Positions 10,375 to 40,514 of a stretch of DNA of 64,000 bases are shown here, in pieces. The notes beneath the pieces were generated by a model, which was not told the DNA's origin, did not search any database, and worked only from the letters and a program-made list of their open reading frames with translations. Source of the DNA: Cellulomonas fengjieae (GTDB taxonomy: Bacteria; Actinomycetota; Actinomycetes; Actinomycetales; Cellulomonadaceae). A program made the translations under genes and the position numbers. Position 1 is the stretch's first letter; each line of letters begins with the position of its first letter. The stretch spans positions 3,472,001-3,536,000 of the forward strand of contig NZ_CP074404.1 of the NCBI RefSeq assembly GCF_018388465.1, written 5' to 3'.

Positions 10375-10428
10375 CCTGGGTCGGTTCGGTGCATTCCCGA
10401 GCGCGTCCAGCCTCTTACCGTTCGCATC

Positions 10429-10506
10429 TGTGGGATCTCATCTGAGTTGTCCAAATCTCACGTACTTGTCCACGGCGTGTCCGAATCTCACCGAGTTGTC
10501 CACGGA
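10429..10506 (+). repeat. Left transposon end with three TnsB-site-like repeats
   Basis: Three direct repeats of the form TCTCAC-n-AnTTGTCC lie inside the left terminus: TCTCATCTGAGTTGTCC (10436-10452), TCTCACGTACTTGTCC (10456-10471) and TCTCACCGAGTTGTCC (10484-10499). Arrays of such sites are the expected TnsB-binding sites. The array runs right up to tnsA, so TnsB bound here could also repress its own operon, as known for Tn7. Confidence 0.8.
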
Positions 10507-10508
10507 GG

Positions 10509-11240: not shown

Positions 11241-13234
11241 GCCAGGCGGGGACGTTCGAGATCCGACCGGGTGGCCGCGTCTGGTGGAGTGGAGCGGTCT
11301 GGCAGGTCGAAGCAGTCAGCGCAAGGGATGTCGTCCTCCGTCGCGACCTCGAGGTTGTCCGTGTCGTGGCGGAGTCGCTCATCGACGGATCGCGCCATCT
11401 GAACAACGACGAGCATGCCCGGTCAGACCTTCCGGCGGTACTTGGGTCGGTCGCGCTCGATGCGCTTCCTGCGTCAGCTCGGCGCGTCGTTGAAGCGGAG
11501 GCTCGTGCGATCGCAGGCGTCGTCGATGGCGAGGGGAGTTTGGGCTCGCGAGTCGCTCGGGCCGCCGACGAGCTTGGTGTTGACGTTCGTACCGTGAGGC
11601 GCCGCGTCGCTGCCTATCAGCGCGCCGGCATCGACGGGTTGGTGGACGGGCGTTGGGCCGGAAAGCGGTCGGCCAACGTCGATCCGCGATGGGATGCCGT
11701 GCTCGTCGCCGTCCTGAGGAGTTACACCAATGCGTCGACGCCTTCCGTGTTGGCGGTGATCGACGAGACGAACCGGCAGGTCGTTTCCGTGCATGGATCC
11801 GACGTCGAACTGCCGTCTCGCGCGACGGCGTACAGGCGAGTCGATTCGCTGAGCAAGGGGCGGCACACGTTTAGGTCGGCGAAATCTCGTCGCTCTGTGG
11901 CGAAGCGGCCCAACGGGGTGCTCGGCCGGCTTCGTGCTGACCGCCCCGGCGAGTACGTCGTGCTCGACACGAACTCGCTCGACGTGTTCGCGATGGAGCC
12001 GGTGACGCGGCGATGGGTGCCGGTGCAGCTGACGGTTGCGATGGACCTCTTCTCTCGCTGCATCCTCGGGCTGCGCCTGACTCCGGTGTCGACGAAAGCC
12101 GTCGACGTGGCGAACGTGCTGTTCCAGTGCGTGCTGCCACAGAGTGACGGCCGAGAGCCATGGCCGTACCACGGGGTGCCATCGAACGTGCTCGTCGGCA
12201 CCGAGGAGCCCGACGGTGTGCACCAGCAGCGGCGCGGAGGACTGCCAGCGATCATCCCGGACACCATCGTCACGGACCACGGCAAGCAGTACCTATCGGC
12301 GCACGTGATCGGCGCATGCGCTCGTCTGGGGATCTGCGTGCAGCCGGCGATCAAGGACAAGCCGACGGACAAACCAACTCTGGAGCGGTTCTTCGGCACG
12401 TTGCGCCTGTCCCTGTTGCAGCACCTGTCCGGCTACAAAGGACCCGACGTTTACTCGCGCGGCAAGGACGTCGAGGACGGAGCTTTCTACTACGTCGCGG
12501 AGTTGGAGCAGATCATCCGCGAGTGGGTTGCGACGGTCTACCACCACTCGCTGCACGACGGGCTGGCGGTCGCCGAGCTCCCGCGGGCTCGGTTCACGCC
12601 GGCGCAGATGTTCGAGGTCGGCCTGGCCCGTATGGGAGGCCTGGTGCTGCCCTCCGCACGCGACCTGGCGTTCGAGTTCCTTGATGTGAAGTGGCGGACC
12701 ATTCAGCACTACGGGGTCGAGGTCAACGGCTTGCGCTACGACGGTGAAGCCCTCAACCCGTACCGCAATCTGCGGTCTGCGTACGGCGGTGCCTACGCGG
12801 GCAAGTGGCCTCTGCACGTGGACACGCACGACGTGCGGCACGTGTGGTTCCGAGATCCCGTCGATGACTCGTGGCACGAGCTGACATGGGAGCACGCACC
12901 TTCTCTCGACGCACCCTTCAGCCTCGACGCCGTCGACTACGCGAAGAAGGTTGCACTCCAGGGCATCCACGTCGACAACCCCTCGGCAGCCGTCTATGAG
13001 CTGCTCGCCTCGTGGCAGCGCGGTGAAGTGACGACGCGCCGCCACCAGAGCCTTGCCCGTCGCCTCGCGTCCCAGCCGGCGCAGGACGCCCAAGGCGATG
13101 CGCGGCAGGTCGCGGCACTGCCTGGAGTCATCGATCTGCTGGAACGTCGTGCGGCTCGTCAACAGCCGGCGGACGATCTGGACGTGTTCGAGCGGTATGC
13201 CCACCTCGAGTCGCTAGAGGTGTTCGACGAGTGA
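11237..13234 (+). CDS. tnsB: TnsB-like DDE transposase
   Basis: The 665-residue transposase of the TnsB/MuA family binds the end repeats and catalyses strand transfer. After an N-terminal helix-turn-helix region (VDVRTVRRRVAAYQRAG) comes an RNase-H-like core with Asp244 (VVLDTNS), Asp347 (IVTDHGKQY) and Glu383 (PTLERFFGT). The 35-residue D-to-E spacing is classic. A Mu-type C-terminal beta-barrel follows, then a basic tail that would contact TnsC. It is start-coupled to tnsA and overlaps tnsC by 4 bp. Confidence 0.95.
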   Translation: MSQAGTFEIRPGGRVWWSGAVWQVEAVSARDVVLRRDLEVVRVVAESLIDGSRHLNNDEHARSDLPAVLGSVALDALPASARRVVEAEARAIAGVVDGEGSLGSRVARAADELGVDVRTVRRRVAAYQRAGIDGLVDGRWAGKRSANVDPRWDAVLVAVLRSYTNASTPSVLAVIDETNRQVVSVHGSDVELPSRATAYRRVDSLSKGRHTFRSAKSRRSVAKRPNGVLGRLRADRPGEYVVLDTNSLDVFAMEPVTRRWVPVQLTVAMDLFSRCILGLRLTPVSTKAVDVANVLFQCVLPQSDGREPWPYHGVPSNVLVGTEEPDGVHQQRRGGLPAIIPDTIVTDHGKQYLSAHVIGACARLGICVQPAIKDKPTDKPTLERFFGTLRLSLLQHLSGYKGPDVYSRGKDVEDGAFYYVAELEQIIREWVATVYHHSLHDGLAVAELPRARFTPAQMFEVGLARMGGLVLPSARDLAFEFLDVKWRTIQHYGVEVNGLRYDGEALNPYRNLRSAYGGAYAGKWPLHVDTHDVRHVWFRDPVDDSWHELTWEHAPSLDAPFSLDAVDYAKKVALQGIHVDNPSAAVYELLASWQRGEVTTRRHQSLARRLASQPAQDAQGDARQVAALPGVIDLLERRAARQQPADDLDVFERYAHLESLEVFDE

Positions 13235-14295
13235 CGAACCGATGGGCGGAGTGGCTGAGGCGCAACGGCACCACGCGGTTCGACATGGCTCGCAAGGCGG
13301 GTTGGGATGCGTTCGTGAACGCGGCTCCGCGCGAGCCTTTGGAGCGCCTGGATCGCCGCCAGATTGCGGCGCTCGACGAAGAGGAGCTGGAGGACTACAA
13401 CGAGGCACGGATCGTGTGGAACGCGAACCTGCCTACGGTGCAAACACCGCAGCTGCTCGCCGCGTACGCCGTCTTCGAGCAGGTGCTGGCCTCGGGACGT
13501 CGTGACGGCGACCGGCAGCGCGGATCCGTGGTGGTGAGCGCCGACGCCGGTCGTGGCAAGTCAACGACCGCCCAGCAATTTGGGCGGGATCTGCATCGGC
13601 GCATCTGCCGGCGCGAGGGTGCGCTAACGGCGGAGGGTCATCAGAGATGGCCAGTCGCCTTCATCCCCCTCTCTGCCGGGATGACCCTCAAGGGATTGAA
13701 CCAGAAGATCCTCGAGTTCTACGGGCACCCAGCCGCGGCGAGGTCATCGACATCGTCGCTGGGGTCGTTCGCGGTTGACTGCGTCCTGTCGTGCCAGACC
13801 CGATTGATCGTGCTCGATGAGCTGCACTTCATCGACTTCCGACACCGGCACGGGATCGAGGTGTCCAACCACCTGAAGTGGCTGGCCAACGAGATGCCGG
13901 TGACTTTCATGTACGTCGGGATCAATCTCGCCGAGAGGGGGTTCTTCGATGACGGGCTCGCTGGCGAGCAGGCGATCTATGCGCAGACCAGCAGGCGGGC
14001 AACGCGCTGCACTCTGTCTGCGTTCAGCCTCGACAGCGACGCGAGCCACGCGATGTGGATTAAGACGCTGCGGGCTCTCGAGGGCGGCATCGTGCTAGCC
14101 GAGGCCCGCCCGGGGATGCTCACTGACCACGCCCGGGAGATCTTTCGCCGCACTCAGGGCAACATCGGCTCGCTGACCAACCTCATCGACGGCGCCTGCC
14201 TCCTGGCGATTACCAAGGGCGCCGAGACTATTGACGCGGACATCCTGGCCGCGGTGGTTATGGACAATGCCGCGACTCGCAGCGCAGCACGCTGA
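13231..14295 (+). CDS. tnsC: TnsC/TniB-like AAA+ target regulator
   Basis: The 354-residue AAA+ ATPase links target selection by TniQ to the TnsAB transposase. It has Walker A SADAGRGKST (Lys110), Walker B LIVLDELHF (Asp196) and a helical C-terminal lid with RRTQGNIGSLTNLIDGA. The start is GTG 13231, overlapping the tnsB stop (GTGA). Length fits the family. Confidence 0.93.
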   Translation: MTNRWAEWLRRNGTTRFDMARKAGWDAFVNAAPREPLERLDRRQIAALDEEELEDYNEARIVWNANLPTVQTPQLLAAYAVFEQVLASGRRDGDRQRGSVVVSADAGRGKSTTAQQFGRDLHRRICRREGALTAEGHQRWPVAFIPLSAGMTLKGLNQKILEFYGHPAAARSSTSSLGSFAVDCVLSCQTRLIVLDELHFIDFRHRHGIEVSNHLKWLANEMPVTFMYVGINLAERGFFDDGLAGEQAIYAQTSRRATRCTLSAFSLDSDASHAMWIKTLRALEGGIVLAEARPGMLTDHAREIFRRTQGNIGSLTNLIDGACLLAITKGAETIDADILAAVVMDNAATRSAAR

Positions 14296-14338
14296 CCGCG
14301 CTACGCGCTCAGATGACCGTCCGCGACTGCGTGTCACG

Positions 14339-15964
14339 ATGGCGGGATACGACGTCAATCAGTGGCCGATCGCGGTGCCTCCCTACGACAATGAACTGCC
14401 GCAGTCCTGGCTGTCGCGTGTCGGAGCTCGCTACGGAGTTCCGCCCTCGACGGTCGCGCGGCTCGCCAAGGACCCGTCCGTCAGATTGACGTCGTTGACC
14501 GCCGGGCAACTGGCCCCTTCAGTGGCGCTGCTTCTTCGAGTCCAGGCCCCTCCTGCATCACCTACCTACCGGGAGATGGAGGTCGACCGGTGGGCCGCCA
14601 CCTACGGCCGAATGCGACGGAGTCGGCAGGGCGCGTCGTTCTGCCCACTCTGTCTAGGCGATCCTGACCCCTTCTGGCGCACGGAGTGGACCGAGCCCTT
14701 GCGCCTCGTGTGCCGACGTCACCGGGTTCTATTGGTCGACGTCTGCCCAACGTGCGGTAAGCGACCGTTCGGCCCGCACTCCTCGTGGTCGCAGCGGATC
14801 GCACCGGCGTGGATGTGCCCGTCGCGACGCGACGACGACGTCCGCATCCACCGGACTCGCCGCGAGTGGTGCAGAACGGACCTGCGGGCCGGCGGGACAT
14901 CCGTGGTGAGCGACGCTCAGCTTGACGCGGCCGAGCACCTCGATCAGGCGCTGGAAGCTGCCGCTCGCGATCCGGGTGGCCCGACTGCGCTGTGGCAGTG
15001 GATGACGACGTCTACCGAGTACGCCCATGCGTTGTTGGAATTGATCGACGAACAGGTACCGGCGAACAGATGGGCGCATGCCAGTTCGCGTGAGCTCGTC
15101 ACGGCCATCGATGTCGCGTCGCAGGTCATGACAGCCGCCTCCCCAGAGGCCGTCGAGGCCATCGCGGCGCGTCATGGTGTTCTTGATCCCGTCGGTACCC
15201 ACACGCCGATTGCGCCCAAGGAACACGACTACCACCCGCGAAATGCCCTGCTCGTTTCGCTACGCCTCGCGTCCCTGGCACCGCACCTGTCGCTCGGGCA
15301 GCAGCTCATGTTCCGCACCGCCTCCGGATGCCCGCGACCTCCTGTGAGGACCGAGCGCCGCGATGGTCCCCGCCGCCTGACGGAGGGCACGTGGCCCGCC
15401 AGGGGATGGGTCCCGCCGGCGCTGTGGGCTGGCGAACTGACCGACCACGTCAGCGTCGACGACAGCTGCGGCCGGGCGGCACTGTCGCTGGCACTCTCCA
15501 AGGTCGGGTCGAGCGTCCCGTTGCGGGCGATCGCGCTCGATCTCGGGCTGCCGTCGTGGCTTGCCGACCGGATCGCGAAGACTCTGAGCAACCGCACGCG
15601 CAACGAGCTCGAACGACTGACTGCTGATCTTGAGCGGCTGTTCTCCCGCCTCGAGGCGGCTCCTCCCCCGATCGACTACTCGCATCGCGTTGCCGTCGGG
15701 CGCGATCTCGCGACGGTTCGGGCGGCGGCCGTCGAGGCTGCGAGCTTTCAAAGCATCGCGTTGGACGAGGCCGAAGAGGTTGCGGCCTCAGTCGCCTTAT
15801 GGGTCGCCTACACCGGTTCGCACCCACGATTCTGCCCGATGTCCGTCAGCGACGGACTGCAGCCACCGTGGCCCTCCGGACTCGATCGGGCGGAGTTCCT
15901 CGACGACGGCTTCCAGCAACTTCCCCACGACCAAGGGGAGCCAATGGCGTGGTTGCCACCTTGA
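14339..15964 (+). CDS. tniQ: TniQ/TnsD-like target-selection protein
   Basis: This TniQ family protein, about 541 residues, selects the insertion site. The N-terminal block PPYDNELPQSWLSRVGARYG and the zinc-binding block FCPLC...CRRH...CPTCG are the family hallmarks. At over 500 residues it is long for TniQ and closer to TnsD size, so sequence-specific targeting is plausible. ATG 14339 puts the TniQ motif at the N-terminus; ATG 14267 and 14231 are in frame and would overlap tnsC. It ends the transposition operon. Confidence 0.9.
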   Translation: MAGYDVNQWPIAVPPYDNELPQSWLSRVGARYGVPPSTVARLAKDPSVRLTSLTAGQLAPSVALLLRVQAPPASPTYREMEVDRWAATYGRMRRSRQGASFCPLCLGDPDPFWRTEWTEPLRLVCRRHRVLLVDVCPTCGKRPFGPHSSWSQRIAPAWMCPSRRDDDVRIHRTRREWCRTDLRAGGTSVVSDAQLDAAEHLDQALEAAARDPGGPTALWQWMTTSTEYAHALLELIDEQVPANRWAHASSRELVTAIDVASQVMTAASPEAVEAIAARHGVLDPVGTHTPIAPKEHDYHPRNALLVSLRLASLAPHLSLGQQLMFRTASGCPRPPVRTERRDGPRRLTEGTWPARGWVPPALWAGELTDHVSVDDSCGRAALSLALSKVGSSVPLRAIALDLGLPSWLADRIAKTLSNRTRNELERLTADLERLFSRLEAAPPPIDYSHRVAVGRDLATVRAAAVEAASFQSIALDEAEEVAASVALWVAYTGSHPRFCPMSVSDGLQPPWPSGLDRAEFLDDGFQQLPHDQGEPMAWLPP

Positions 15965-29907: not shown

Positions 29908-30111
29908 GTGGCACCCTCCAAGGGTCCGAGTGCGTTGGCTCGTTCCATCCGGTGCTTTCTCAGGGCGAACCGGTGTGGGGCGAGCCTTCGTGCGTGCTGG
30001 ACGCGGCTGCGGCAGCACGTAGAGGTCTATCGGTTTGCCTGGCTCTTTGTCGCCCCCTGGGCGTACGATGCCAATGCGTCTTGGACGCGCCGGTCGATCA
30101 ATGAGGTATCC

Positions 30112-31317: not shown

Positions 31318-31719
31318 TCAGGAACCCGCCCGTGCTCGCTTCCGTTGCCGGCGCGACCGGGATACGGCTTCGACAGACCGCTGTTGAAGGTGCGCGGTCC
31401 CTTCGGGGCGGACCCAATCGGGGATTCGGTCCCAGGGCGGCTTGCGACCCTTGACAGCCTTCGAGGTGAGATGCCACCCGTCGCAGACGTCGCACGGGTA
31501 GGTCCGCATCGGCAGCGGGGTGCGCTTGCCCTTCTTGGCCGCCTTCTCGTGGATGCTCGCCAGCGCAAGGTGCGCTGCGGCCTGGTCCGCGTAGAACGCC
31601 TTGTCGCAGGTTCGCACCGCGCCAGTCTTCACTTCCCATCGACTGCAGCTCCAGACCCACTTGGGGGACCGATTATGAGGATTGGGACAGAAACATGAGA
31701 TGTCCGTCGTCTCACTCAC
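31318..31719 (-). CDS. Cys-rich hypothetical protein at the transposon right end
   Basis: The 133-residue protein has several Cys/His clusters suggesting zinc binding: ISCFCPNPHN, WSCSRWEVKTGAVRTCDKAFY and YPCDVCDGWHLTSK. The last block is common in small proteins of actinobacterial phages and mobile elements. The tail is very basic. The GTG start (31719) and first codons lie inside the right-end repeat, so the gene is transcribed inward from the terminus. A start further downstream is possible. Confidence 0.55.
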   Translation of the reverse strand: MSETTDISCFCPNPHNRSPKWVWSCSRWEVKTGAVRTCDKAFYADQAAAHLALASIHEKAAKKGKRTPLPMRTYPCDVCDGWHLTSKAVKGRKPPWDRIPDWVRPEGTAHLQQRSVEAVSRSRRQRKRARAGS

Positions 31720-31775
31720 CTGTCCACGCGCAGGTCATGGCCAGGCCATGCGGACAACTCCGCTGAGTTCCTACA
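31677..31775 (+). repeat. Right transposon end (99-bp element, copy E1)
   Basis: Layout: GAGGATTG, then GGACAGAAACATGAGA (31685-31700), then TCTCACTCACCTGTCC (31710-31725), a spacer with GCAGGTCA, and a terminal block GGACAACTC...GAGTTCCTACA ending at 31775. The inner and terminal blocks are inverted versions of the left-end TnsB sites. It is followed directly by the target duplication GCATC. Confidence 0.85.
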
Positions 31776-32064
31776 GCATCGACGTGGGTCTGCCTCTGCG
31801 AGGCGATCCGCACCGGTCGGACGAAGCGGGACGACGTCCCGGACCACCTTCCGATGCAGCTCACCAAGACTCAGATGGTGTCGGCGCTGGCCATGAGGCC
31901 CAGGAGGACCGGCGCAAGAGGTCGATGTTGCGGTCCTTGCGTGGCTAGGGACAGGCGTTGCCGAGGGCGGCAGGCGGAGCCTGGCAACTGATCGGTGCGG
32001 AAGCGGCTTGAGGACGTGGAACCAGAGCTGGCGATCGTCCCGTCCCTGCTGCGATCCTCCGGTC
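31776..32064 (+). repeat. Upstream part of duplicated unit (copy 1), no gene
   Basis: This stretch is nearly identical to 39309-39599, with only scattered substitutions and small indels, and leads into the 217-residue gene in both places. No open frame with a good start was seen, and the two copies differ in frame, so it is likely untranslated or decayed sequence. It starts with the target duplication GCATC. Confidence 0.75.
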
Positions 32065-32718
32065 GTGACGAATGAGCCGTGGTTCCAGGACGCGTCGTGG
32101 GTCCGCGCTGCGTTCCCGGGGGCGCTGGGCCCGGAAGCCGCCGAGGTCGCGCAGCTCCTGCCGCCGTACGACGACCCCTGGGGCGCCAGCGCTTTCACCG
32201 CCACTGCCACCGCCCACGCTGTGCCCTTCGCCCTCGAGGGGGAGATGCTCGCTTTCCCGTCCCGCATCTACCACGGCGCCCTACCGGCGGACACGTCATT
32301 CGTCATGTCGCTGTCGCCGGTCGTAGCTGCGTGCGCCTACACGCGCCACCACGACGGCCACGTGCGGCAGAGGGCGCTGCAAACGCTGCTTCGCGGGCCC
32401 AGCGCCATGGCGCCGTGGGTCGTCCCGTACGTCGTCAAGCTCGTGGACGAGTACGTCGTCGAGATCGTCGAGGACGTCGCGGCGTTCCTCACCGAGGTGG
32501 GCGTCGAGGGTTCGCCGCAGCAGCGCGCCTACGGGCGGGTACTGGTTCAGAACCCCGAGATGCTGCGCTTGCTGCGGGCGCGGGCGAGCAGTTACTGGGA
32601 CTGCTACTACCGCCGGCGCTACCGCCGCCTCGAGGAGTACCCGGGACACCGCCTCGCCCTGGCCCTGTCCCGCGCCGCGGCGTTCGAGGGGGCACCATGG
32701 CCGCCCCCACGGCCGTAG
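32065..32718 (+). CDS. Hypothetical protein, duplicated family A (intact copy)
   Basis: The 217-residue protein starts at GTG 32065 (VTNEPWFQDASWVRAAFPG). It looks like a soluble alpha/beta plus helical protein: YRIYHG-type strand region (SRIYHGALPADTSFVMSLSP), HHDGHVRQRALQTLLRG, helix VVEIVEDVAAFLTEV, and a Tyr/Arg-rich region SSYWDCYYRRRYRRLEEYPG. No family recognised. A frameshifted paralogue lies at 39600-40240. A 99-bp right-end repeat begins 30 bp after its stop. Confidence 0.7.
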   Translation: MTNEPWFQDASWVRAAFPGALGPEAAEVAQLLPPYDDPWGASAFTATATAHAVPFALEGEMLAFPSRIYHGALPADTSFVMSLSPVVAACAYTRHHDGHVRQRALQTLLRGPSAMAPWVVPYVVKLVDEYVVEIVEDVAAFLTEVGVEGSPQQRAYGRVLVQNPEMLRLLRARASSYWDCYYRRRYRRLEEYPGHRLALALSRAAAFEGAPWPPPRP

Positions 32719-32748
32719 GCGCGCGGGTGGCGTGATGCGCAGCGATTT

Positions 32749-32847
32749 GAGGATCTGGACAGATAGGTGAGACGGGCCGCGTCTCACCTATCTGTCCATC
32801 AGCAGGTCAAGTGATCGCGCGTCGGACAACTCGCGCGAGTTCCTACA
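32749..32847 (+). repeat. 99-bp right-end-type element, copy E2 (perfect hairpin)
   Basis: This has the same layout and exact length as the transposon right end. The first block is a perfect 18-bp inverted repeat (32757-32774 and 32780-32797, loop GGCCG). Then come a spacer with GCAGGTCA and the terminal block GGACAACTCGCGCGAGTTCC-TACA ending at 32847. No matching left end or target duplication was found, so it looks orphaned. Confidence 0.85.
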
Positions 32848-32957
32848 GGAGTGCTGGCCTGGCACCTGCACGTACCGATCCGCCGCGGTGCTCGAACACT
32901 CTGGAGCAGCCGTCCTGTTGTGGGGACCTGCGGAGGGCGCCGTGGGACGCTCCTCAC

Positions 32958-33398
32958 GTGACGAAGCGCCCGAAGACGGATCCCCTGCACCTCGAGATCG
33001 TCCGCGCCCGCGAAGCGCAGCGGGTCTGGGTCGACGCGTGGTCGGCGCCCCTCGGGACGTCGTTCGACGATGTCGCCCGCCGCGCAGGCCTGGAGCCGCT
33101 CGGTGACCAGTGGGAGACGTTGGGCCGCGCGGCCGCCGTCGACCTCCTGGCGCTGCTGCTTCATCGTGACCTCGCGTACAGCGGAATCGCCGCCCCGGCA
33201 ACGCAGGCACGCGAGCTCGCGGAGGGTTTCGTCGGGTCGTTCGGTCCGGAGGAGTGCCGCTACGCGACCAACCGACCCCTGCGAGGCGGGCGCTTCGCAC
33301 CCTCCTGGAACCCCGCGACGTCATTCACGTTCGACGCTGGTGTGATCGTCGTCGGCCGTGAGCGGGCCGGGGTGCTCTGGGTCGCTGACGAAGACTGA
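32958..33398 (+). CDS. Hypothetical protein after element E2
   Basis: The 146-residue protein from GTG 32958 (VTKRPKTDPLHLEIVRAREAQ) is mostly helical at first (AAAVDLLALLLHRDLAYSG), with a C-terminal beta hairpin (TFDAGVIVVGRERAGVLWVADED) that suggests a small immunity- or regulator-like fold. Not recognised. It lies 110 bp after the end of E2, similar to the spacing of other genes in this zone. Confidence 0.6.
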   Translation: MTKRPKTDPLHLEIVRAREAQRVWVDAWSAPLGTSFDDVARRAGLEPLGDQWETLGRAAAVDLLALLLHRDLAYSGIAAPATQARELAEGFVGSFGPEECRYATNRPLRGGRFAPSWNPATSFTFDAGVIVVGRERAGVLWVADED

Positions 33399-33429
33399 GG
33401 AGCTTCGCGGACGTCGGCGCTGCCGTTGC

Positions 33430-33594
33430 GCCAGGTCGTCCGCCGTGGCGGCCGCGTCGTTGGCGGGCGGCGATGGTGTCGGACTTCTCGGGGATCACGA
33501 CCTGGATGCCTCGTGCGTGCAGCGCCCGCCGGTAGGCGCCGGCGGAGTAGGCCGCCCCTCGTTCGAGGGCAGCAACGGCTCGATCCGCGCCCAC
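33430..33594 (-). pseudogene. Fragment of an IS5-type transposase
   Basis: The minus strand reads AYSAGAYRRALHARGIQVVIPEKSD followed by RQRRGRHGGRP. This matches the conserved stretch of IS5-family DDE transposases (a helix, then RGI-x-x-x-IPEK-x-D, then RRG-x-x-GGRP). Only about 50 residues are present, and no other part of the insertion sequence or inverted repeats is visible. It fills most of the gap 33399-33761; I see nothing else there. Confidence 0.6.
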
Positions 33595-33761
33595 CGCTCG
33601 TGAGAGAACACCTGATACCGCGAAGTTGACGTCAGACCACAGACTGCCGCGCGCCTCACCGCAGAAATGGGAGACGCGCCCTAGTTGGCGTCGCTCTCAC
33701 CCACGGCGCGGCCAGCTCGACGGCGCACCCGCACCGGGGAGGCTCAGACCGCTCCGCGACG

Positions 33762-34286
33762 TCAGACCGAGGCTATGTTGAACTCGTCTGCTGTGATCAC
33801 GAACTGCCTGTAGTGGGTGTGCTCGCCCAGGTAGGTGCCGCCGTTCCCATTGCCGGTCTCCCGCATCCCGAGCCGTCGGAGGATGCGTACGGACGGTTCG
33901 TTGGCGTCCAGCGCTTCCGCCCAGATCTCGCGAAGGCCGATGTCAGCGAAGCCGTACTCCAGACCTGCAGCAGCGGCGACCGTTCCTACGCCTTTACCCC
34001 ACAGGCGTCGCTCGCCGATCAGGTACCCCAGTTCCCGTCGGTCGGGCTCATCGCCGTGAAGGTCGACGTAGCCGATCAAGTGACCTCCGTGAACCACCCC
34101 AAGCCGCAGGAGGTCGGCGGGAGGCTCTGAAATCGAACGACGGTAGAAGGACGAGTAGAACTCGAGGCCGCGTCCTACGGGCCACTCCGCAGCCCGGCAG
34201 AACTCCTCATCCCGGGCCCACGAAGCGATCGCTCCAGCGTCGTCGACAGTGAGAGGTCGCAGGGACACGGTCGGGGTCTCAAGCAC
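33762..34286 (-). CDS. GNAT-family N-acetyltransferase
   Basis: The 174-residue protein resembles RimJ/RimL-type acetyltransferases: N-terminal VSLRPLTVDDAGAIASWARD, the acetyl-CoA loop RRLWGKGVGT, then IWAEALDANEPSVRILRRLGMRETG. The acceptor (protein N-terminus, drug or metabolite) cannot be deduced. Length is normal. It stands alone on the minus strand within the repeat zone. Confidence 0.88.
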   Translation of the reverse strand: MLETPTVSLRPLTVDDAGAIASWARDEEFCRAAEWPVGRGLEFYSSFYRRSISEPPADLLRLGVVHGGHLIGYVDLHGDEPDRRELGYLIGERRLWGKGVGTVAAAAGLEYGFADIGLREIWAEALDANEPSVRILRRLGMRETGNGNGGTYLGEHTHYRQFVITADEFNIASV

Positions 34287-34501
34287 TCCAAGAGGCTAGT
34301 CCGGCGTACTGAACCTCACCCACGTCCGCGATGTCCTCGGCCACCGATCATGGACGGCGCTGGCTCGGCCGGCGTCCTCGAACGCGGAACGCGGTGGGTG
34401 TGTGCGCCCGGCATCGCTGAACTCGGAGCAGAGCGAGGATCGGCGCCGGATCTCCGTGACCGTCGAGAGGGAGGAACGGTGAGTGCGAGAGCAAGCAGGG
34501 G

Positions 34502-34546
34502 ATCGGGATCTCATCGGAGTTGTCCAAAACTCACGTGATTGTCCAC
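34502..34546 (+). repeat. Left-end-like repeat of the Tn7-type element (degenerate)
   Basis: GGGATCTCATCGGAGTTGTCC (34505-34525) followed by ACTCACGTGATTGTCC (34530-34545) closely matches 10432-10471, the transposon's left end, in the same orientation. The outer TGT is replaced by ATC, so it is probably a dead left end. No tns genes follow it. The surrounding interval 34287-34570 has no supported gene. Confidence 0.7.
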
Positions 34547-34570
34547 TCCGCGCCTCAGACGCCGGGCAGG

Positions 34571-35767
34571 ATGACCGTCAGGTCCCCACGGGCGGAGGTC
34601 GTGACGATGCGAGTGCTGCTGGACGAACTGGTCAGCGTCGACTACGGGTTCATGACGATCGAGCCGTTCGGCGGTGCCCTGAGCCCCAAGTTGAGCGAAT
34701 CACGAGGCGGCCAGCGGAACGGGCTGTGCGGTGCGGCGCTCCCCGGTGCGCTGTCGTTCGTCGTCGGTCTGAACACCGGATCCGTCCCGGTCCGCATCGA
34801 GCTCCACGACGACGCTCCGCCGCCCGACCCTGACTGGGAGGACGTCGTCGAGGCCTCCCTGACCCCGGTCGAGGCCGAGCCGTACCTGCTCTCCAGCTTC
34901 GACCACGCGGAGCCGCTCGACCTGCCCACCGACAGGTCCTTGCGCGCGCGCTGGAGTGCGCATGGGATGGACGAGGCCCATCAGTGCGGAGCCGAGGAGG
35001 GGGAGCCGCCGGTCGACCGGTACCTTCTGCAGCTTTGGCCTGCTCCACCCGCGGCCGACAGGGTGGTGCGGTGCGGCAGCGAGGAGGCGCGGTACTGGCA
35101 CTGCGTCGCCGAGCAGACGCCCCCGCCGCCGACACCCGAGGAACGCGAGCGTGCGCGGATCGCTCAGGAGGCGGCGGACCAGGCTCGCGAGGAGGCTGCG
35201 CGTCGCGCGTGGGACGAGCGCGAGGAGACCGCTGCCTGGGGTGGTCGGCCACCGAGCGACGACCTCCGGGCCTGGGGGTGGCGCGCCCGTCAGCTCGCGG
35301 GGCAGGACCGCGACCTCGTCGACGCGATCGCCGGGCTCGACCCCGACCAGCAGCGCGCCCTGGCGGCCTGGGCGGCGACCCGGGCGTGCGAACGGGCCGC
35401 GATCCTCGACCGGCCGGGGGTCGCCGCGGCGCTCGCCGACATCGCACGCGGTGCGACGCCGGCCGCGCCCTGGACGGGCTTTGGCGAGGCGTGGGATGCC
35501 CTGTTCCCGCCGGAGCCCGACGACCAGGACGACGCCGGGGCGCCGCTCTCCGCGGTCGTCATGACGATCTCGCTGAGTCCGGCGTCCGCGGCACGGACGC
35601 CACTCGCGCCCGAGGCCGCGGCGATCGACGCCATCCTCTCGGCCGCGGATCCGCACCCGGGCACGGCGGCGGCGGGAGCGGTCGACGGTCTCGGGTCCGG
35701 GGCACTCGACCGGGACGCCTGCTTCGCCGAGGCGCTCGCGGTCGTGCGGTCGCTCGGCGCGCGGTGA
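34571..35767 (+). CDS. Hypothetical protein with charged coiled-coil middle
   Basis: The 398-residue protein (ATG 34571; ATG 34607 also possible) has an N-terminal beta-rich domain (MRVLLDELVSVDYGFMTIEP, SFVVGLNTGSVPVRIELHDD) resembling a family of uncharacterised actinobacterial proteins. A Glu/Arg/Ala helix (PEERERARIAQEAADQ) follows, then an Ala-rich helical C-terminus (DLVDAIAGLDPDQQRALAAW). No catalytic motif seen. It begins 25 bp after the left-end-like repeat. Confidence 0.65.
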   Translation: MTVRSPRAEVVTMRVLLDELVSVDYGFMTIEPFGGALSPKLSESRGGQRNGLCGAALPGALSFVVGLNTGSVPVRIELHDDAPPPDPDWEDVVEASLTPVEAEPYLLSSFDHAEPLDLPTDRSLRARWSAHGMDEAHQCGAEEGEPPVDRYLLQLWPAPPAADRVVRCGSEEARYWHCVAEQTPPPPTPEERERARIAQEAADQAREEAARRAWDEREETAAWGGRPPSDDLRAWGWRARQLAGQDRDLVDAIAGLDPDQQRALAAWAATRACERAAILDRPGVAAALADIARGATPAAPWTGFGEAWDALFPPEPDDQDDAGAPLSAVVMTISLSPASAARTPLAPEAAAIDAILSAADPHPGTAAAGAVDGLGSGALDRDACFAEALAVVRSLGAR

Positions 35768-35977
35768 TGCGGACGGCCGCGGCGGAGCGGGTGGCGAGGC
35801 CGCAATGGCATCTCGCACGTTCCGCCGCGAACGGTCCCCGCGAGAGCAGATCGCCGTCGTCTGGTACTGCGTGCGGCAAGGCGGCGTCGGGATCAGGCGA
35901 CCGCTAAGCGTCCAACGACGGTCGCCCCGATCACAGCGCATCCGGGAAGGCGATTCGGCGTGCGAGGCGTGCTTGCC

Positions 35978-36124
35978 TCACATCCCGAGATCGGCTGTCA
36001 CCAGGCGGTAGCCGGCGTCCAGCTCGTAGAGCTCAAGGAGGTCGGCGTGCCGCTCGGCCCACACACCTGTTGCGATGTCGCTCGCAGGGTCTTCCAGCCC
36101 GCGACGGAGCTCCGCTTCGTCGAC
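35978..36124 (-). pseudogene. Short fragment of a gene, no start codon
   Basis: The minus strand reads VDEAELRRGLEDPASDIATG, then WAERHADLLELYELDAGYRLV and ends TADLGM-stop. This is very protein-like, but there is no start codon in frame upstream, so it is either a 5'-truncated remnant or begins at an unusual codon. It lies in the 404-bp gap 35768-36171, which otherwise holds only the promoter of the MFS gene. Confidence 0.35.
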
Positions 36125-36134
36125 ATGGCTCGGT

Positions 36135-36165
36135 TTGACCCTCGACCAGGTCGAGGCGCCAACGT
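36135..36165 (+). promoter_or_regulatory. MerR-type promoter/operator of the MFS gene
   Basis: TTGACC (36135-36140) is separated by 19 bp from CAACGT (36160-36165). Within the long spacer is the near-perfect palindrome CCTCGACCAGGTCGAGG (36140-36156). A 19-bp spacer with a central dyad is the hallmark of MerR-activated promoters. A closely related site controls the regulator gene at 37496-37526. Confidence 0.75.
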
Positions 36166-36171
36166 GCGGCC

Positions 36172-37470
36172 ATGACCGTCACAGACCTGCCACCGGGCGC
36201 GCTCCCCCGCTCCTACCTCACCTGGCTGACGGGGTTCACCGTCTCGCGGCTGGGCGACGCCGTGTTGATGTTCGCGCTCGGCTGGGCAGCCTCCGGGCTG
36301 GGAGGCACAACAGCGGCCCTCGTCCTCACCCTCACCGGACTTCCTCGCGTGATCTTGCTGGTCGTGGGCGGCGCTGTCGCCGACCGCGTCGGTGCACGAC
36401 GCATCCTCATCGCCGGCGAGGCCGCGATGCTCGCGCTGAGCGTTGCCCTGGCCGTGGCGCTCGCGCGCTTCGGAACTCCCACCTGGCTTCTTCTGACATC
36501 TTCGCTCGCGCTCGGCACAGTCACGGCGTTCTGCCTCCCCGCTGCGGGCTCCCAGCCGCGGCGCTTGGTTCCAGACGATCAGCTCCCCCGTGCGCTCGCC
36601 CTGCGCCAGGGCTCGGGCCAGGCCGTGCTGATGGGAGCAGCGCCGCTAGGAGGTCTTCTGGTCGGCACGGTCGGACTTCCGGCGATCGCGTGGGGTGACG
36701 CAGTGACGCTGGGCGTCGGGCTCTGTGTCCTTGTCGCCGTTCGCGACATGTCGAGCCCGGCGTCAGATGCGGTGTCGACGGCCGCGTCGCGTACCGTCCG
36801 GCTCGACCTGGTCGACGGCTTCCGCGTCGTGGGGAGGACTCCAGGCCTGCGCAGGGCTCTCATTCTTGTGGGTGCCGGCGCGGCGCTGATGCTGCCCGTG
36901 CCGTCTCTGCTCGTGCCGCTGCTCGGAAGAGCGTCGAGCTGGGGGCCGGGCTCGACGGGCGTCGTGGCCGGCGCTGTGGGTGTGGGAGTGATCAGCGCTG
37001 CTGTCCTCACGGCCCGACGCCGTCGTCCACCGCCTCGCACGGCCGGAGGGGCGCGTGCTGCTGCGGGGCTCGCGGTGAGCGCGGTCGGTGCCTTCCTCCT
37101 CGCCACTGGTCCGGCGCTCGTCGGTCCGGATGGTGTCGCGGTCGCGATCGTCGGCGCCCTGGTTTTCGGGTTCGGGAACGGGACGTTCGTCGCGCGACTG
37201 GCGCCCCTGGTCTTGGGCAGCGCACCGCGGACTCACCTCGCCCGCGTGCAGGCACTCGTCGGGCTGGTGCAGCTGGTGCCCGTGATGGTGACGAACACGA
37301 TCCTCGGCGCACTGGCCCAGCACGCCTCGCCGGGCTGGGCACTCGGGGCAACGAGCGCCGGCCTGGCGGCATGCGCCGCGTGGGCGTACCGGCTCCGGTT
37401 GTACGACGACGGTGTGTCTGCCGGCCCGGCAGCGCGGGAACAGCATGACGATCGCCTACCGGCTCGGTGA
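36172..37470 (+). CDS. MFS transporter, probable drug efflux
   Basis: The 432-residue integral membrane protein has about 12 hydrophobic helices. The start YLTWLTGFTVSRLGDAVLMF and the loop VVGGAVADRVGARRILIAGE (G-x3-D-R-x-G-x-R-R motif of the major facilitator superfamily) resemble the MFS_3/enterobactin-exporter branch. The substrate is unknown. It is followed 62 bp later by a MerR-type regulator whose promoter has the same operator, so a drug-responsive exporter is likely. Confidence 0.88.
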   Translation: MTVTDLPPGALPRSYLTWLTGFTVSRLGDAVLMFALGWAASGLGGTTAALVLTLTGLPRVILLVVGGAVADRVGARRILIAGEAAMLALSVALAVALARFGTPTWLLLTSSLALGTVTAFCLPAAGSQPRRLVPDDQLPRALALRQGSGQAVLMGAAPLGGLLVGTVGLPAIAWGDAVTLGVGLCVLVAVRDMSSPASDAVSTAASRTVRLDLVDGFRVVGRTPGLRRALILVGAGAALMLPVPSLLVPLLGRASSWGPGSTGVVAGAVGVGVISAAVLTARRRRPPPRTAGGARAAAGLAVSAVGAFLLATGPALVGPDGVAVAIVGALVFGFGNGTFVARLAPLVLGSAPRTHLARVQALVGLVQLVPVMVTNTILGALAQHASPGWALGATSAGLAACAAWAYRLRLYDDGVSAGPAAREQHDDRLPAR

Positions 37471-37495
37471 GTTCGTACCCGCATGTCGGCTCCGC

Positions 37496-37526
37496 TTGAC
37501 CCTCACCTGGGTCGAGGGCTCACAGT
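37496..37526 (+). promoter_or_regulatory. MerR-type promoter/operator of the regulator gene
   Basis: TTGACC (37496-37501), a 19-bp spacer and CACAGT (37521-37526). The spacer carries CCTCACCTGGGTCGAGG (37501-37517), which matches the MFS operator at 13 of 17 positions. This suggests autoregulation, with the transcript starting very close to the GTG start at 37533. Confidence 0.75.
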
Positions 37527-37532
37527 TGGCCC

Positions 37533-38510
37533 GTGCACGACGACCTGCTCAGCATCGGAGCGCTGGCCCGCGCCGGCGGCCCGCCCGTTTCAGCGCTCCG
37601 GTTCTACGACGCGGCCGGTGTACTGCGGCCGGCGCACGTCGACCCGGCCACGGGCTACCGCTGGTACACCTCCGCACAGGTTCACACCGCTCGGCTGATC
37701 GCCAGCCTGCGGCAGGCAGGGCTTCCGGTGGTTGATCTGGTCGCCGTGCTCGAGACTCCGCACGCGGCGGCGGACGTCCTGGCCCGTCACCGACGCCGCC
37801 TCGAGGAAGACCTCACCGCGGCTCACGCGCACCTGGACGCGGCCGTAGACATCCTGGCCCAGCCCGGAAGGTGCTGGGTCGCGGCCGAGGATCTACTCGG
37901 GGCGATCGCCGCGGTCCGCCACGCGGTGGGCGCCGACGCGGCGTGGCCTGGACTCGCCGGCGTTCTGCTGCATCTCGACGGGGCCACGCTCCGGCTCGTC
38001 GCCTGCGACCGATCACGAGTCGCTGTCGCGACGGTGCCGACGCGACAGCCCTCAGGCCCTCAGGTCCGCGTGGTGGCGCCGCTGGCGTTCCTCGACCGGA
38101 TCGCGTCTGCCGCGCTGCCCCACGACGGACAGGTCGTCCTAGGAGCGCACCGTCTCGAGATCCTGGGCGTTCATGGCCAGCCGCTCGAGGCCGGGTTTCC
38201 GGACTACCAGCAGCTCCTGCGGTGGGGCGGGTCGGTAAGCGTCACCATCGCGTCCGGGGAGCTGGTCGCAAGCGCCGAAGCGGCAGACGACATCGTCGTT
38301 GTGCGCCTCGACGGGGGTCGGGTGGATCTCGCTCCTCCGGGCGCAGGAGACGCGTTTGCCTTCTCGCGGACGTTCCTTCTGGACGCAGTCCGCGCGGCCG
38401 CGGCTGAGCACGTCGCCTTGGCACTCGACGAGCGGTACGCCCTGAGCGTGGCCCCAGCAGACCGCCCGGACGACATCGGCCTGATGATGCCGATCCGCCT
38501 GCTCCACTAA
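37533..38510 (+). CDS. MerR-type regulator fused to a DNA-polymerase sliding-clamp-like domain
   Basis: The 325-residue protein starts with a MerR winged helix (LLSIGALARAGGPPVSALRFYDAAGVLRPA, then GYRWYTSAQ) and a coiled-coil helix to about residue 110. The C-terminal part resembles domains of the DnaN beta clamp: LRLVACDRSRVAVATV, EAGFPDYQQLL, FSRTFLLDAVRAA and the terminal MMPIRLLH, equivalent to the MPxRL end of beta clamps. The clamp part would serve as ligand-binding or dimerisation domain. It probably controls the MFS gene and itself. Confidence 0.8.
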   Translation: MHDDLLSIGALARAGGPPVSALRFYDAAGVLRPAHVDPATGYRWYTSAQVHTARLIASLRQAGLPVVDLVAVLETPHAAADVLARHRRRLEEDLTAAHAHLDAAVDILAQPGRCWVAAEDLLGAIAAVRHAVGADAAWPGLAGVLLHLDGATLRLVACDRSRVAVATVPTRQPSGPQVRVVAPLAFLDRIASAALPHDGQVVLGAHRLEILGVHGQPLEAGFPDYQQLLRWGGSVSVTIASGELVASAEAADDIVVVRLDGGRVDLAPPGAGDAFAFSRTFLLDAVRAAAAEHVALALDERYALSVAPADRPDDIGLMMPIRLLH

Positions 38511-38562
38511 ATCTCCAGCGCTAAGCGATGGCGCGTGCCATGTACCCGCTCGAGCGAATCCT

Positions 38563-38660
38563 GAGGGTACGGACAAGTACATGAGACGAGCACCGTCTCA
38601 TGAAGTTGTCCCAGTGGAGGTCAGAGCGTGGCCCATGGACGAACCGCGTGAGTCCCTACG
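38563..38660 (+). repeat. 98-bp right-end-type element, copy E3
   Basis: Layout as E1: GAGGGTAC, then an 18-bp imperfect inverted repeat (GGACAAGTACATGAGACG and CGTCTCATGAAGTTGTCC, 16 of 18 paired), a spacer with GGAGGTCA, and a terminal block ending GTGAGTCCCTAC. The last base of ACA is replaced by G. It begins 52 bp after the MerR-clamp gene stop. The interval 38511-38797 holds nothing else recognisable. Confidence 0.8.
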
Positions 38661-38690
38661 CTTCTTCTCCGCCGAACGCCCTCTTGCGAT

Positions 38691-39148
38691 CGGTGCCACC
38701 TGCCGCGGGAAGACGCTCGATGAGCGATGCTGCCTGACGCCTTGAGCAGAGGTTCGGCAACGTTCCTGGTACCAGGCTCGGGAAGGACGCCGAACGAGTG
38801 GAAGGAGTTCCTTCACCGCCCTGGACCTTGCGATCATCGTTCGATGAGCTCGTCGCAGGCCGCCCGGTCGACACGGAACTGAGCGACGCGATCGTCGCGT
38901 ATGTCGGAATGATCCATGATCGCCCCGAGGTTCTCGCCGCCCACGCCGTTCGCCGATCGCCTCAGGAACTGCAGGCAGCGATCCACTCCCTGCGCTCCGA
39001 ACTGTGGAGTGTCCCGGTCGAGGCCCGGGGCATCACTGTCTGGGAGGAGTGCCGACGCAAGCACGACGTGTTCGCACCGCAGCACCCTGAGCTTTCAGAG
39101 GAGGCACTGAGCGCACTGATGATGCGCTACGCCTGGGCGAACCGCTGA
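38691..39148 (+). repeat. Duplicated unit B, copy 1 (pairs with 41261-41719)
   Basis: Starting at CGGTGCCACC, the two stretches share the same order of sequence: GATGAGCGATGCTG, GAGCAG, ACGCCGAACGAGTGGAA and CTTGCGATCATCGTTCGATGAG, then the family B gene to its stop. They diverge completely after the stop. Copy 1 directly follows element E3; copy 2 follows the MOSC gene. Confidence 0.8.
38798..39148 (+). CDS. Hypothetical protein, duplicated family B (copy 1, altered start)
   Basis: The 116-residue frame from GTG 38798 shares its C-terminal 90 residues with the copy at 41411: VDTELSDAIVAYVGMIHDRPE, QAAIHSLRSELWSVPVEA, PELSEEALSALMMRYAWANR. The ATG used in copy 2 is conserved in DNA here, but a net 4-bp deletion just after it puts it out of frame. 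This copy must therefore use the upstream GTG, or it is no longer translated. Function unknown; mostly helical. Confidence 0.55.
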   Translation: MEGVPSPPWTLRSSFDELVAGRPVDTELSDAIVAYVGMIHDRPEVLAAHAVRRSPQELQAAIHSLRSELWSVPVEARGITVWEECRRKHDVFAPQHPELSEEALSALMMRYAWANR

Positions 39149-39209
39149 GGTATCGCCTGTACGCCCGGTACCCGGGCAGCCAGGGCAAACTCAGGCGCAG
39201 TCCACTCTC

Positions 39210-39308
39210 GAAGATTCGGACAAGTAGGTGAGACGGACGCCGTCGCGCCTACGTGTCCCCTCGCAGGTCGGAGCCTCGGACCCCGGACAACTCCGGTGAG
39301 TTCCTACA
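39210..39308 (+). repeat. 99-bp right-end-type element, copy E4
   Basis: Exact 99-bp layout: GAAGATTC, GGACAAGTAGGTGAGACG paired imperfectly with CGTCGCGCCTACGTGTCC, a spacer with GCAGGTCG, and the terminal block GGACAACTCCGGTGAGTTCC-TACA ending at 39308. It begins 61 bp after the family B gene. The next bases, CGCATCGACGTGGG, correspond to the sequence flanking the Tn7-like element. Confidence 0.85.
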
Positions 39309-39599
39309 CGCATCGACGTGGGTCTGCCTTCTGCGAGGCGATCCGCACCGGTCGGACGAAGCGGGACGACGTCCCGGACCACCTCCCGATGCAGCTCACC
39401 AAGACTCAGATGGTGTCGGCGCTGACCCATGAGGCCCAGGAGGACCGGCGCAAGAGGTCGATGTTGCGGCCCTTGCGTGGCTAGGGACAGGCGTTGGCGA
39501 GGGCGGCAGGCGGAGCCTGGCAACTGATCGGGGCGAAGCGGCTTGAGGACGTGGAACCAGAGCTGGCGATCGTCCCGTCGCTGCTGCGATCCTCCGATC
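39309..39599 (+). repeat. Upstream part of duplicated unit (copy 2), no gene
   Basis: Nearly identical to 31776-32064. It begins CGCATCGACGTGGGTCTGCC. No supported gene; the frames present differ from those in copy 1. Confidence 0.75.
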
Positions 39600-40240
39600 G
39601 TGACGAATGAGCCGTGGTTCCAGGACGCGTCGTGGGTCGGCGCGGCGTTCCCGGCGCTGCTGCGCTCGGAGGCTGCCGAGGTCGCGCAGGCCCTCCCGCC
39701 GTACGACGACCCCTGGGGCGCCAGGCCTTCACCGCCACCGCCACCGCCCACACCGTCCCCGTCGCCCTCGATGGGGAGATCCTCGCTTTCCCGTACCGCA
39801 TCTACCACGGCGCCCTACCCGCGAACACGTCGTTCGTCATGTCGTTGTCGCCGGTCGTAGCCGCGTGCGCCTACACGCGCCACCACGATGGCCAGGTGCG
39901 GCAGAGGGCGCTGCAAACGCTGCTTCGCGGGCCCAGCGCCATGGCGCCGTGGGTCGTCCCGTACGTCGTCAAGCTCGTGGACGAGTACGTCGTCGAGATC
40001 GTCGAGGACGTCGCGGCGTTCCTCACCGAGGTGGACGTCGAGGGTTCGCCGCAGCAGCGCGCCTACGGGCGGGTACTGGTTCAGAACCCCGAGATGCTGC
40101 GCTTGCTGCGGGCGCGGGCGAGCAGTTACTGGGACTGCTACTACCGCCGGCGCTACCGCCGCCTCGAGGAGTACCCGGGGCACCGCCTCGCCCTGACCCT
40201 GTCCCGCGCCGCGGCGTTCGAGGGGGCACCATGGCCGTAG
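39600..40240 (+). pseudogene. Frameshifted second copy of family A
   Basis: Same start (GTG 39600, VTNEPWFQDASWVGAAFP) and very high identity to the gene at 32065. A single-base deletion near 39724 (GCCAGG-CCTTCACC against GCCAGCGCTTTCACC) shifts the frame. The remainder reads on in another frame as QAFTATATAHTVPVALDGE to the conserved end, with no other breaks. The intact C-terminal part suggests recent loss or a sequencing error. Element E5 begins 30 bp after the stop, as E2 does in copy 1. Confidence 0.8.
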
Positions 40241-40270
40241 GCGCGCGGGCGGCGTGATGCGCGGCGATTT

Positions 40271-40369
40271 GAGGATCCGGACAGATAGGTGAGACGAGCC
40301 GCGTCTCCCTTATCTGTCCCTCAGCAGGTCAGGCGATCGCACGCCGGACAACGCGCGCGAGTTCCTACA
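40271..40369 (+). repeat. 99-bp right-end-type element, copy E5
   Basis: Exact 99-bp layout: GAGGATCC, inverted repeat GGACAGATAGGTGAGACG with CGTCTCCCTTATCTGTCC (16 of 18 paired), a spacer with GCAGGTCA, and the terminal block GGACAACGCGCGCGAGTTCC-TACA ending at 40369. The 145 bp from here to the MOSC gene stop (40370-40514) contain nothing I can identify. Confidence 0.85.
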
Positions 40370-40514
40370 ATCGAGCCTGTCCGCGTCGCGTGAGCGTGTC
40401 CGGCCGCCGACCTGCTGGCGCATCGAGCGAGTCCCATCGCAGGTCACAGCACCGCGGCGCCCGAGCGCCGCCTGACGCACCCTGTCCGGTCAGATGTTGC
40501 GGCCCATCCTCGGC

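Follow-up and report, generated by a model that had tools for sequence, protein, structure and literature searches.

An array of transposon ends beside dnaK in Cellulomonas fengjieae, very probably left by Tn7-like insertions stacked at a single site

How does a bacterial chromosome come to carry a row of similar transposon ends, all in one orientation and with genes between them? The question is raised by a 64,000-nt stretch of the Cellulomonas fengjieae genome (contig NZ_CP074404.1, positions 3,472,001 to 3,536,000; hereafter the window), in which an earlier note described five copies of a 99-bp transposon right end (E1–E5) as an array delimiting one-gene units. Two readings were offered: serial insertions at one hotspot, or a transposase that moves or captures units bounded by right ends only. 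The positions, lengths (99, 99, 98, 99 and 99 bp) and common orientation of the copies are as described (Table 1), as are the gaps of 30, 52, 61 and 30 bp that separate the last stop base of an ORF from the starts of E2, E3, E4 and E5. The motifs are less uniform: GAGGAT opens the other copies but reads GAGGGT in E3 and GAAGAT in E4, the terminal CCTACA block is CCTACG in E3, and only in E2 do all 18 bp of the inverted repeat match perfectly. The label must be reversed, since the convention given in a passage of PMC6360697 calls the end nearest tnsA the right end, which makes the copies left ends. Here we call the tns-distal ends E and the tns-proximal ends P.

The five copies are genuine tns-distal ends, of about 99 bp, of an actinobacterial Tn7-like element with TnsA, TnsB, TnsC and TniQ. 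E1 has, as the earlier note held, an opposite partner end (here starting at 10429) and a target duplication (GCATC), but it may not be the only paired copy, as discussed below. The P end has three direct TnsB-type sites and sits 30 bp past a CATTCCC box in the dnaK promoter region. Judged from sequence, the element has the hallmarks of Tn7-like transposons: a TnsB-type DDE transposase with a predicted TnsA-type endonuclease next to it, plus TnsC and a TniQ/TnsD-type protein; several putative transposase sites per end and TGT/ACA termini; and site-specific insertion, a set distance away from a conserved sequence. In the transposase ORF, rve and Mu-transpos_C score slightly below their Pfam cut-offs, and the real start probably lies downstream of the longest-ORF start.

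Table 1. Ends, genes and target-site features of the array, in window coordinates
Feature	Position	Strand	Remarks
Conserved box CATTCCC, dnaK promoter region	10392..10398	.	Reference point for the insertion site
Target duplication GCATC, dnaK side	10424..10428	.	
P end (tns-proximal, dnaK-proximal; Tn7 right-end equivalent)	10429..10510	+	Begins TGTGGGATC...
TnsA-like endonuclease	10509..11240	+	NF033179 TnsA_like_Actin, 164.7 bits, cut-off 110
TnsB/TniA-type DDE transposase	10928..13234	+	Longest ORF; HTH above Pfam cut-off
TnsC/TniB ATPase	13231..14295	+	TniB PF05621 1.5e-12, above cut-off
TniQ/TnsD-type target selector	14231..15964	+	TniQ PF06527 1.8e-12, above cut-off
E1	31677..31775	+	Distal end of autonomous element 10429-31775
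Target duplication GCATC, far side	31776..31780	.	
E2	32749..32847	+	Distal end, first geneA unit
Worn second P end	34502..34568	+	42 nt, 90% identity to end at 10432
E3	38563..38660	+	Distal end, follows MerR-type gene
E4	39210..39308	+	Distal end, follows geneF
Second geneA unit	39317..40369	+	Worn P-like terminus CGTGGGTCT through E5 end
E5	40271..40369	+	Distal end
Rest of MOSC unit's P end, base 12 onward	40370..40413	+	Aligned to whole end in G019

Our results support a model in which the array was, with high probability, built by Tn7-like insertions that stack up at one attachment site before the dnaK gene of these soil actinobacteria. An element with TnsABC and TniQ would insert about 30 bp past the promoter box, with P facing dnaK and 5 bp of the target duplicated; the insertion point, the orientation of P and the duplication at the box are shown at the level of the DNA, and TniQ would be the protein that reads the site. 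The site would remain usable. Later entrants, whether autonomous elements or short derivatives that are non-autonomous (some of which retain part of tnsA), would use the same entry point and displace older units away from dnaK. Because this point coincides with a resident's P end, that end would be butted against, split or deleted, while the buried distal E end would survive; the units would therefore read as a gene followed by E, with no partner end. Since repeated insertion at one point predicts the loss of partner ends, units bounded by E ends only are not needed to account for the array, although a weaker form of that idea, capture, has support in three of eight autonomous elements. The hotspot reading, in turn, is strongly supported by the fixed insertion point, the junctions, the duplications and the split ends in the window and in a second genome, G362.

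The fixed point recurs across the genus. Among 60 Cellulomonas genomes, one per species, 24 carry strong E copies (E <= 1e-5), always on the contig of dnaK, and four of these have a cognate TnsC. In all 20 genomes whose fetched region includes dnaK, the gene is on the minus strand and the array lies to its right; the remaining four carry dnaK on the contig of the array, 7–11 kb from the nearest E. The first P end lies 30–31 bp from the dnaK-promoter box in 10 of the 20 arrays (nine by script and that of G010 by eye), and in the other ten at 36, 44 or 149 bp, or was not found (seven arrays). The distance is 31, 31 and 30 bp in further elements in G308, G362 and G369, and 31 bp in G333, which belongs to another family. 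At 15 further dnaK loci a P end was detected in three, at 27, 31 and 35 bp.

Target duplications and junctions bear the marks of insertion. Exact 5-bp duplications flank seven of eight autonomous elements, the element of G369 having none. Four occurred among 85 P–E pairs, against 0.53 expected from the 5-mers of other genomes, in a test that took all P–E pairs and not just the nearest E as partner; these four are the four tns-bearing elements, and three of the four elements added later are also exact. A looser scan, allowing up to three terminus mismatches, was rejected over whole intervals (18/83, null mean 11.7); restricted to the 60 bp after the preceding E, it gave 4 against 0.69, and it missed G031 because the nearest E was taken as partner. 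Counting against the model, identical 5-mers follow two E copies within one genome in just 5/216 comparisons, against 10/3525, an excess that is commoner than chance (reached by 6 of 2000 permutations) but rare. Unit borders are also shared: G067 18777-19752 and G069 5439-6414 match at 98.7% identity over a span that opens 3 nt ahead of the P terminus and closes with the final base of E. This unit comes first after dnaK in G069; in G067 four other E copies lie between it and dnaK.

The window itself holds remnants of further insertions. The E4–E5 unit, one of the four in the restricted scan, is flanked by ATCGA (39312-39316, then 40370-40374), and its P-like terminus CGTGGGTCT differs from the usual one at three of nine positions, which is suggestive of a second P–E pair with its own duplication. 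E5 abuts the P end of the MOSC unit at base 12 of that end, which an alignment finds intact in G019; insertion of the E5 unit split it here. In G362, similarly, TGTGGG stays on the dnaK side and the matching E is then followed by GTGGGATCTCATCTGAG. The worn P end at 34502-34568 has ATC in place of the terminal TGT, and its nhmmer score is circular because that end was a model seed. Fragments of tnsA lie inside units of G062, G081 and G003.

How often is the partner end missing? Among 87 E copies, a set that includes some weak matches (up to E 0.05), a recognised P end lies within 40 bp in 19, nine of these at 4–5 bp. The other 68 have no such partner nearby, and complete loss of P ends is therefore common, although we infer most losses from the absence of a P end. 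The 33 ends from which the P-end model was made come from the same arrays, and P ends are under-counted because a subtype with GGGAAGACGC repeats escaped it. Decayed P ends were also sought 5 bp past the P-less copies; the faint P-like signal there (mean 2.74 of 9, against a background of 2.50; s.e. 0.16) is not a significant excess, and this candidate was rejected.

E scores fall with distance from dnaK when the 12 arrays with at least three scored copies are pooled (permutation 0.009). The rank correlation is positive in G000 (the genome of the window, whose own copies built the E-score model), G011 and G078, slightly so in G081, and zero in G069. This analysis covered 84 hits in 16 arrays, leaving out G064, G023, G021, G019, G030, G072, G003, G006 and the weakest hit of G016.

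An extension of the stacking model concerns how residents leave. An autonomous element can probably also join its own P end to an outer E, which would turn resident units into cargo at the next move; the target duplications of three elements suggest as much. In G031, G308 and G362, the exact duplication spans 1, 1 and 5 inner distal ends, and the flank of the nearest distal end differs; the duplicated 5-mer in G362, GTGGG, is also the start of a P end and less telling alone. Whether elements that land directly next to residents at the dnaK site, by pairing their proximal end with a resident's distal end, then leave with one or more foreign units is a tentative proposal, to which we give slightly less than an even chance. 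Short junctions within such a composite, each with its own 5-mer, would record former sites.

Another possibility is that E-bounded units are true cassettes, moved integron-like as distal-end-only units by one-ended transposition or E-to-E exchange. The 68 partnerless copies fit this reading, as do a G062 unit (10055-12879) flanked by GCTTC on both sides with no P end, two units that adjoin in one of G062 and G005 and are split by another E-bounded unit in the other, and the arrays of 20 of the 24 genomes, which persist without a cognate TnsC. However, an identical E-only appearance is expected if insertions stack at one point and lose their P ends, the exact duplications pair P with E, and the unit shared by G067 and G069 is bordered from P to E where both termini coincide. 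Moreover, Tn7-type transposases require an inverted end pair, and two direct E ends provide none. We regard movement of E-only units as unlikely. Growth of the rows by homologous recombination or tandem duplication between E copies, rather than by repeated insertion, is more doubtful still: the copies are similar enough to recombine, the E1–E2 and E4–E5 stretches are 91.8% identical over 1174 nt, and the G067 array holds three related unit ends, but units of one array rarely match one another at the BLAST cut-off used, and target duplications and 4–5-bp junctions are marks of transposition.

The least credible alternative is that the copies are REP-like or terminator elements at gene ends with no tie to transposition. 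Its appeal lies in an inverted repeat that is strong in single strands (z = -7.1 in E2; weakest in E1, z = -1.5), in three core pairs that covary beyond independent columns, and in the 19/87 copies that lie at most 120 bp downstream of a same-strand ORF stop, against 4.9% of random positions (minus-strand stops, 0/87 against 4.2%). As a sole explanation it is contradicted by the target duplications, a copy being the matched end in seven of the eight autonomous elements, and by genome searches that find one locus. The earlier note had named random genome-wide copies with no link to tns genes as evidence against transposon ends, and the searches found otherwise: BLAST of the 3.99-Mb genome placed all five strong full-length matches in the window, and a covariance model recovered them at E 2.5e-32 to 8.8e-26, the next full-length match outside the window having E = 0.02. 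Each array in the 24 strong genomes likewise has one orientation and one locus. E copies may serve as terminators besides being ends. Among 57 distinct 99-nt copies, just columns 14-16 with 42-44 clearly exceed independent expectation; this does not prove a hairpin function, as two co-evolving TnsB sites would give the same signal. A known structured RNA was also rejected: a search of 31600-40500 against Rfam gave nothing up to E 0.1.

Compared with known systems, the locus resembles Tn7 and its relatives with heteromeric TnsA+TnsB in its TnsA, TnsB, TnsC and TniQ genes, its TGT...ACA termini and 5-bp duplication, its several predicted transposase-type sites per end and its insertion at a constant distance from a conserved site. 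The tns-proximal end points to the attachment gene, as Tn7R faces glmS. Unlike in Tn7-like elements, however, the site is the promoter side of dnaK and not a gene's 3′ end, the distal end carries an inverted site pair, and arrays hold many E copies (up to 11 longer than 80 nt, in G067), mostly in genomes without a cognate TnsC. Integron cassette arrays string together short units that each close with a conserved, partly palindromic element, and can persist without the enzyme gene. The rows of E-ended units are alike in both respects, including to integrase-less clusters, but they differ in a DDE-type transposase, 5-bp duplications, two different ends and a newest unit at a chromosomal promoter; attC sites recombine inside GTT, whereas the readable borders here fall after TACA and before TGT. 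The array fits neither integrons nor REP elements. Neighbouring elements may jointly use their outer ends in composite and pseudo-compound transposons, and SCC elements stack by serial integration at orfX; those systems use other enzymes, and capture here would be one-sided because chiefly distal ends survive. Passages of Benler et al. describe multiple ends arising from insertion within or beside an existing element, and an actinobacteria-dominated clade without experimental characterisation (PMC8649781). A term search of the main text of Faure et al. (PMC10293859) did not find "dnaK", and in a limited literature search we found neither dnaK named as a Tn7-like target nor a description of such arrays, which does not establish priority.

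In summary, entry at one point, which wrecks one end of a resident and preserves the other, would account for end-only arrays. The arrays would then record, in order of time, the genes gained next to dnaK throughout the genus. The stacking suggests that target immunity is absent, weak or subtype-specific, and thus bears on how immunity is evaded. Searching from the transposition genes alone would overlook 20 of the 24 strong arrays. Our work also suggests a testable route by which cargo is collected piecemeal: if capture occurs, the surviving row of distal ends would be a ready cargo store, and a Tn7-type transposase would carry out integron-like gene capture.

The array of E copies in the window sits beside dnaK, and its members are ends of a Tn7-like element. 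The earlier note had reported five copies of a transposon right end; all five are present as stated, with small details corrected, whereas the name is reversed. In the passage of PMC6360697 consulted, the Tn7 convention takes the end closest to tnsA as the right end, so E, the tns-distal end, is the left one. In each copy, two opposed transposase-type sites (GGACA...TGAGAC) form an inverted repeat around a loop of 5 nt, and a third site ends in GAGTTCCTACA or a near variant; the 18-bp stem is perfect in E2 and imperfect in the remaining four. A covariance model (R1) built from the five copies and BLAST found no comparable copies elsewhere in this genome, the next full-length match to R1 having an E-value of 0.02.

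Features of the window around the array (P, tns-proximal, dnaK-side end; unit, a gene and the E copy that follows it)
Feature	Position	Description
E1 to E5	31677, 32749, 38563, 39210, 40271	Inside to outside: GAGGAT-like start; two inverted sites; AGGTC; third site
Autonomous element (P + E1)	10429-31775	Flanked on both sides by GCATC
P end	10429	Begins TGTGGGATCTCATC; three direct sites
TnsA-like protein	Left of array	NF033179
TnsB/TniA-type transposase, TniB-type ATPase, TniQ protein	Left of array	
Type I restriction system	Beyond tns genes	
Cargo	16922-31149	Partly defence-like in look: HsdMSR type I restriction, FRG-domain protein, PLD-domain protein
geneA copies	32008-32718; 39597-40240	Units ending at E2 and E5
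116/141-aa protein, family unknown	38718-39148; 41285-41719	Duplicated (86-89%)
Worn terminus	39317	CGTGGGTCT, preceded by ATCGA
NAD-specific glutamate dehydrogenase (Pfam)	8371-10281, plus	Rejected as a gene: antisense shadow of dnaK (minus strand, 8383-10245)

The association with dnaK extends across the genus. Named genomes scanned for the pattern gave 19 stretches (18 Cellulomonas and one Actinotalea), three of which carry a DnaK 95-96% identical to that of the window; this points to Cellulomonas as the genus of the window. Among 60 genomes of the genus, 33 had E matches at an E-value of 0.1 or below and 24 at 1e-5 or below. For 20 of these 24 the fetched region includes dnaK, which, with E read as plus, is in every case a minus-strand gene left of the array; in the other four it shares the contig, with the nearest E 7-11 kb off. 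No array had full-length opposite-strand matches except those overlapping a plus copy, where the inverted repeat is read backwards. Order-wide, 17 of 297 genomes had a match at 1e-5 or below, 13 of them outside the genus, and dnaK lies inside the stretch at three of 12 fetched loci (those of G333, G337 and G245, none of which belongs to the genus); one of the 12 (G308) is from the genus, and several of those without dnaK are short contig ends. Cognate TnsC (E-value < 1e-150) is encoded in four of the 24 strong genomes and in seven of 81 genomes of the genus, and remote relatives only in three of 60; the TnsB search covered 35 relatives in the genus and the window's own genome. Relatives of the window's HsdM, HsdS, HsdR and PLD protein occur in G308, and of HsdM and HsdR in G369. 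On contig C4 of G023, loci L075 and L076 lie about 35 kb apart and hold E copies that are the same in sequence and flanks but oppositely oriented, together with two matches to the dnaK promoter; this amounts to a large inverted duplication, which assembly may have produced.

Insertion occurs at a nearly fixed point. The dnaK promoter region contains two HAIR-like repeats as well as a (C/T)(A/G)TTCCC box. In 10 of 20 arrays (nine scored by script, G010 by eye) the first P end is 30 or 31 bp past this box, and in three it is 36, 44 and 149 bp past it; in the other seven it was not found with our P-end model, which does not include a subtype with GGGAAGACGC repeats. The distance is 31, 31 and 30 bp in further elements of G308, G362 and G369, and 31 bp in G333, from another family. 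Among 15 further dnaK loci, P ends (E-value ≤ 1e-3) were found in three only, at 27, 31 and 35 bp. A term search of the main text of Faure et al. 2023 (PMC10293859) found no mention of dnaK.

The median spacing of successive E copies is 1416 bp, and 45 of the 63 intervals measure 500-3500 bp. We examined 87 copies (matches longer than 80 nt, up to an E-value of 0.05, some weak; one mirrored G023 copy excluded). In 19, a P end follows at no more than 40 bp downstream, the gap being 4-5 bp in nine of them. In one shared unit both borders match the termini exactly: G067 18777-19752 and G069 5439-6414 are 98.7% identical over a segment that opens 3 nt ahead of the P terminus and closes with the final base of E; this unit stands first after dnaK in G069 and behind four E copies in G067. 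Several more shared segments stop at, or a few bases from, an E terminus, and many others do not. Fragments of tnsA lie inside units of G062, G081 and G003, which gives some of the small units the look of complete elements that have lost their interior. The 116/141-aa protein recurs in fetched regions of G067 and G081. By a crude composition-based ORF filter, a plus-strand stop lies within 120 bp upstream of 19 of the 87 copies, versus 4.9% at random, and a minus-strand stop of none, versus 4.2%; the inverted repeat of E is a possible terminator.

New insertions can hit the P end of the resident, and E copies would survive because they sit away from the entry point. In the window, E5 directly abuts ATCGAGCC..., the MOSC-domain unit's P end from base 12 on; G019 has this end complete, with 8 bp between it and an E-type terminus. 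The ATCGA before the worn terminus is also present directly after E5 and may be the target duplication of the E5 unit, although with three of nine terminus positions mismatched it is suggestive only. In G362, TGTGGG is kept on the dnaK side and GTGGGATCTCATCTGAG, the resident end without its first base, follows the matching E. Of the 87 copies, 68 show no P trace, so complete P-end deletions must be common too; the model behind this count lacked the GGGAAGACGC subtype. Repeats of CTCGGGAAGACGC type, found upstream of dnaK in G072, G008, G061 and G064 and also at L062 and L068, in places behind TGTAGG-like termini, probably represent another subtype of P end, one whose transposase sites differ. 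Scores of E drop with distance from dnaK in a pooled test (12 arrays; permutation, 0.009); the individual arrays do not all follow, with a positive correlation in G000 (the window's genome), G011 and G078, a slightly positive one in G081 and zero in G069. The second geneA copy has a frame change near its start relative to the first and thus looks broken.

Exact target duplications flank four of 85 P-E pairs (0.53 expected), and these four are the autonomous elements; of four further autonomous elements three have one and G369 has none. The matching E is the nearest in G010, although this element also contains an inner P end. Counted outward, it is the second in G031 and G308 and the sixth in G362, the nearest E being differently flanked; the G362 match is less telling alone, since its GTGGG coincides with the start of a P end. 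These three cases are most simply read as pairing of P with an outer E, the inner units being carried along. The alternative is that E copies recombined once the insertion had taken place. Had insertion struck the same host 5-mer more than once, an outer E would match as well, but the absence of a match at the nearest E would stay unexplained.

Benler et al. 2021 (PMC8649781) mention that multiple ends result when an element inserts into or next to one already present, and that the actinobacteria-dominated clade is uncharacterised. Target immunity is described in a section of a 2024 review (PMC11406308), so that stacking was unexpected; arrays of this kind were absent from the literature searched, a scope outside which the main older papers fall. 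Judged by their features, the element and its E arrays constitute a Tn7-like family, in which P paired with an outer E may carry resident units along.
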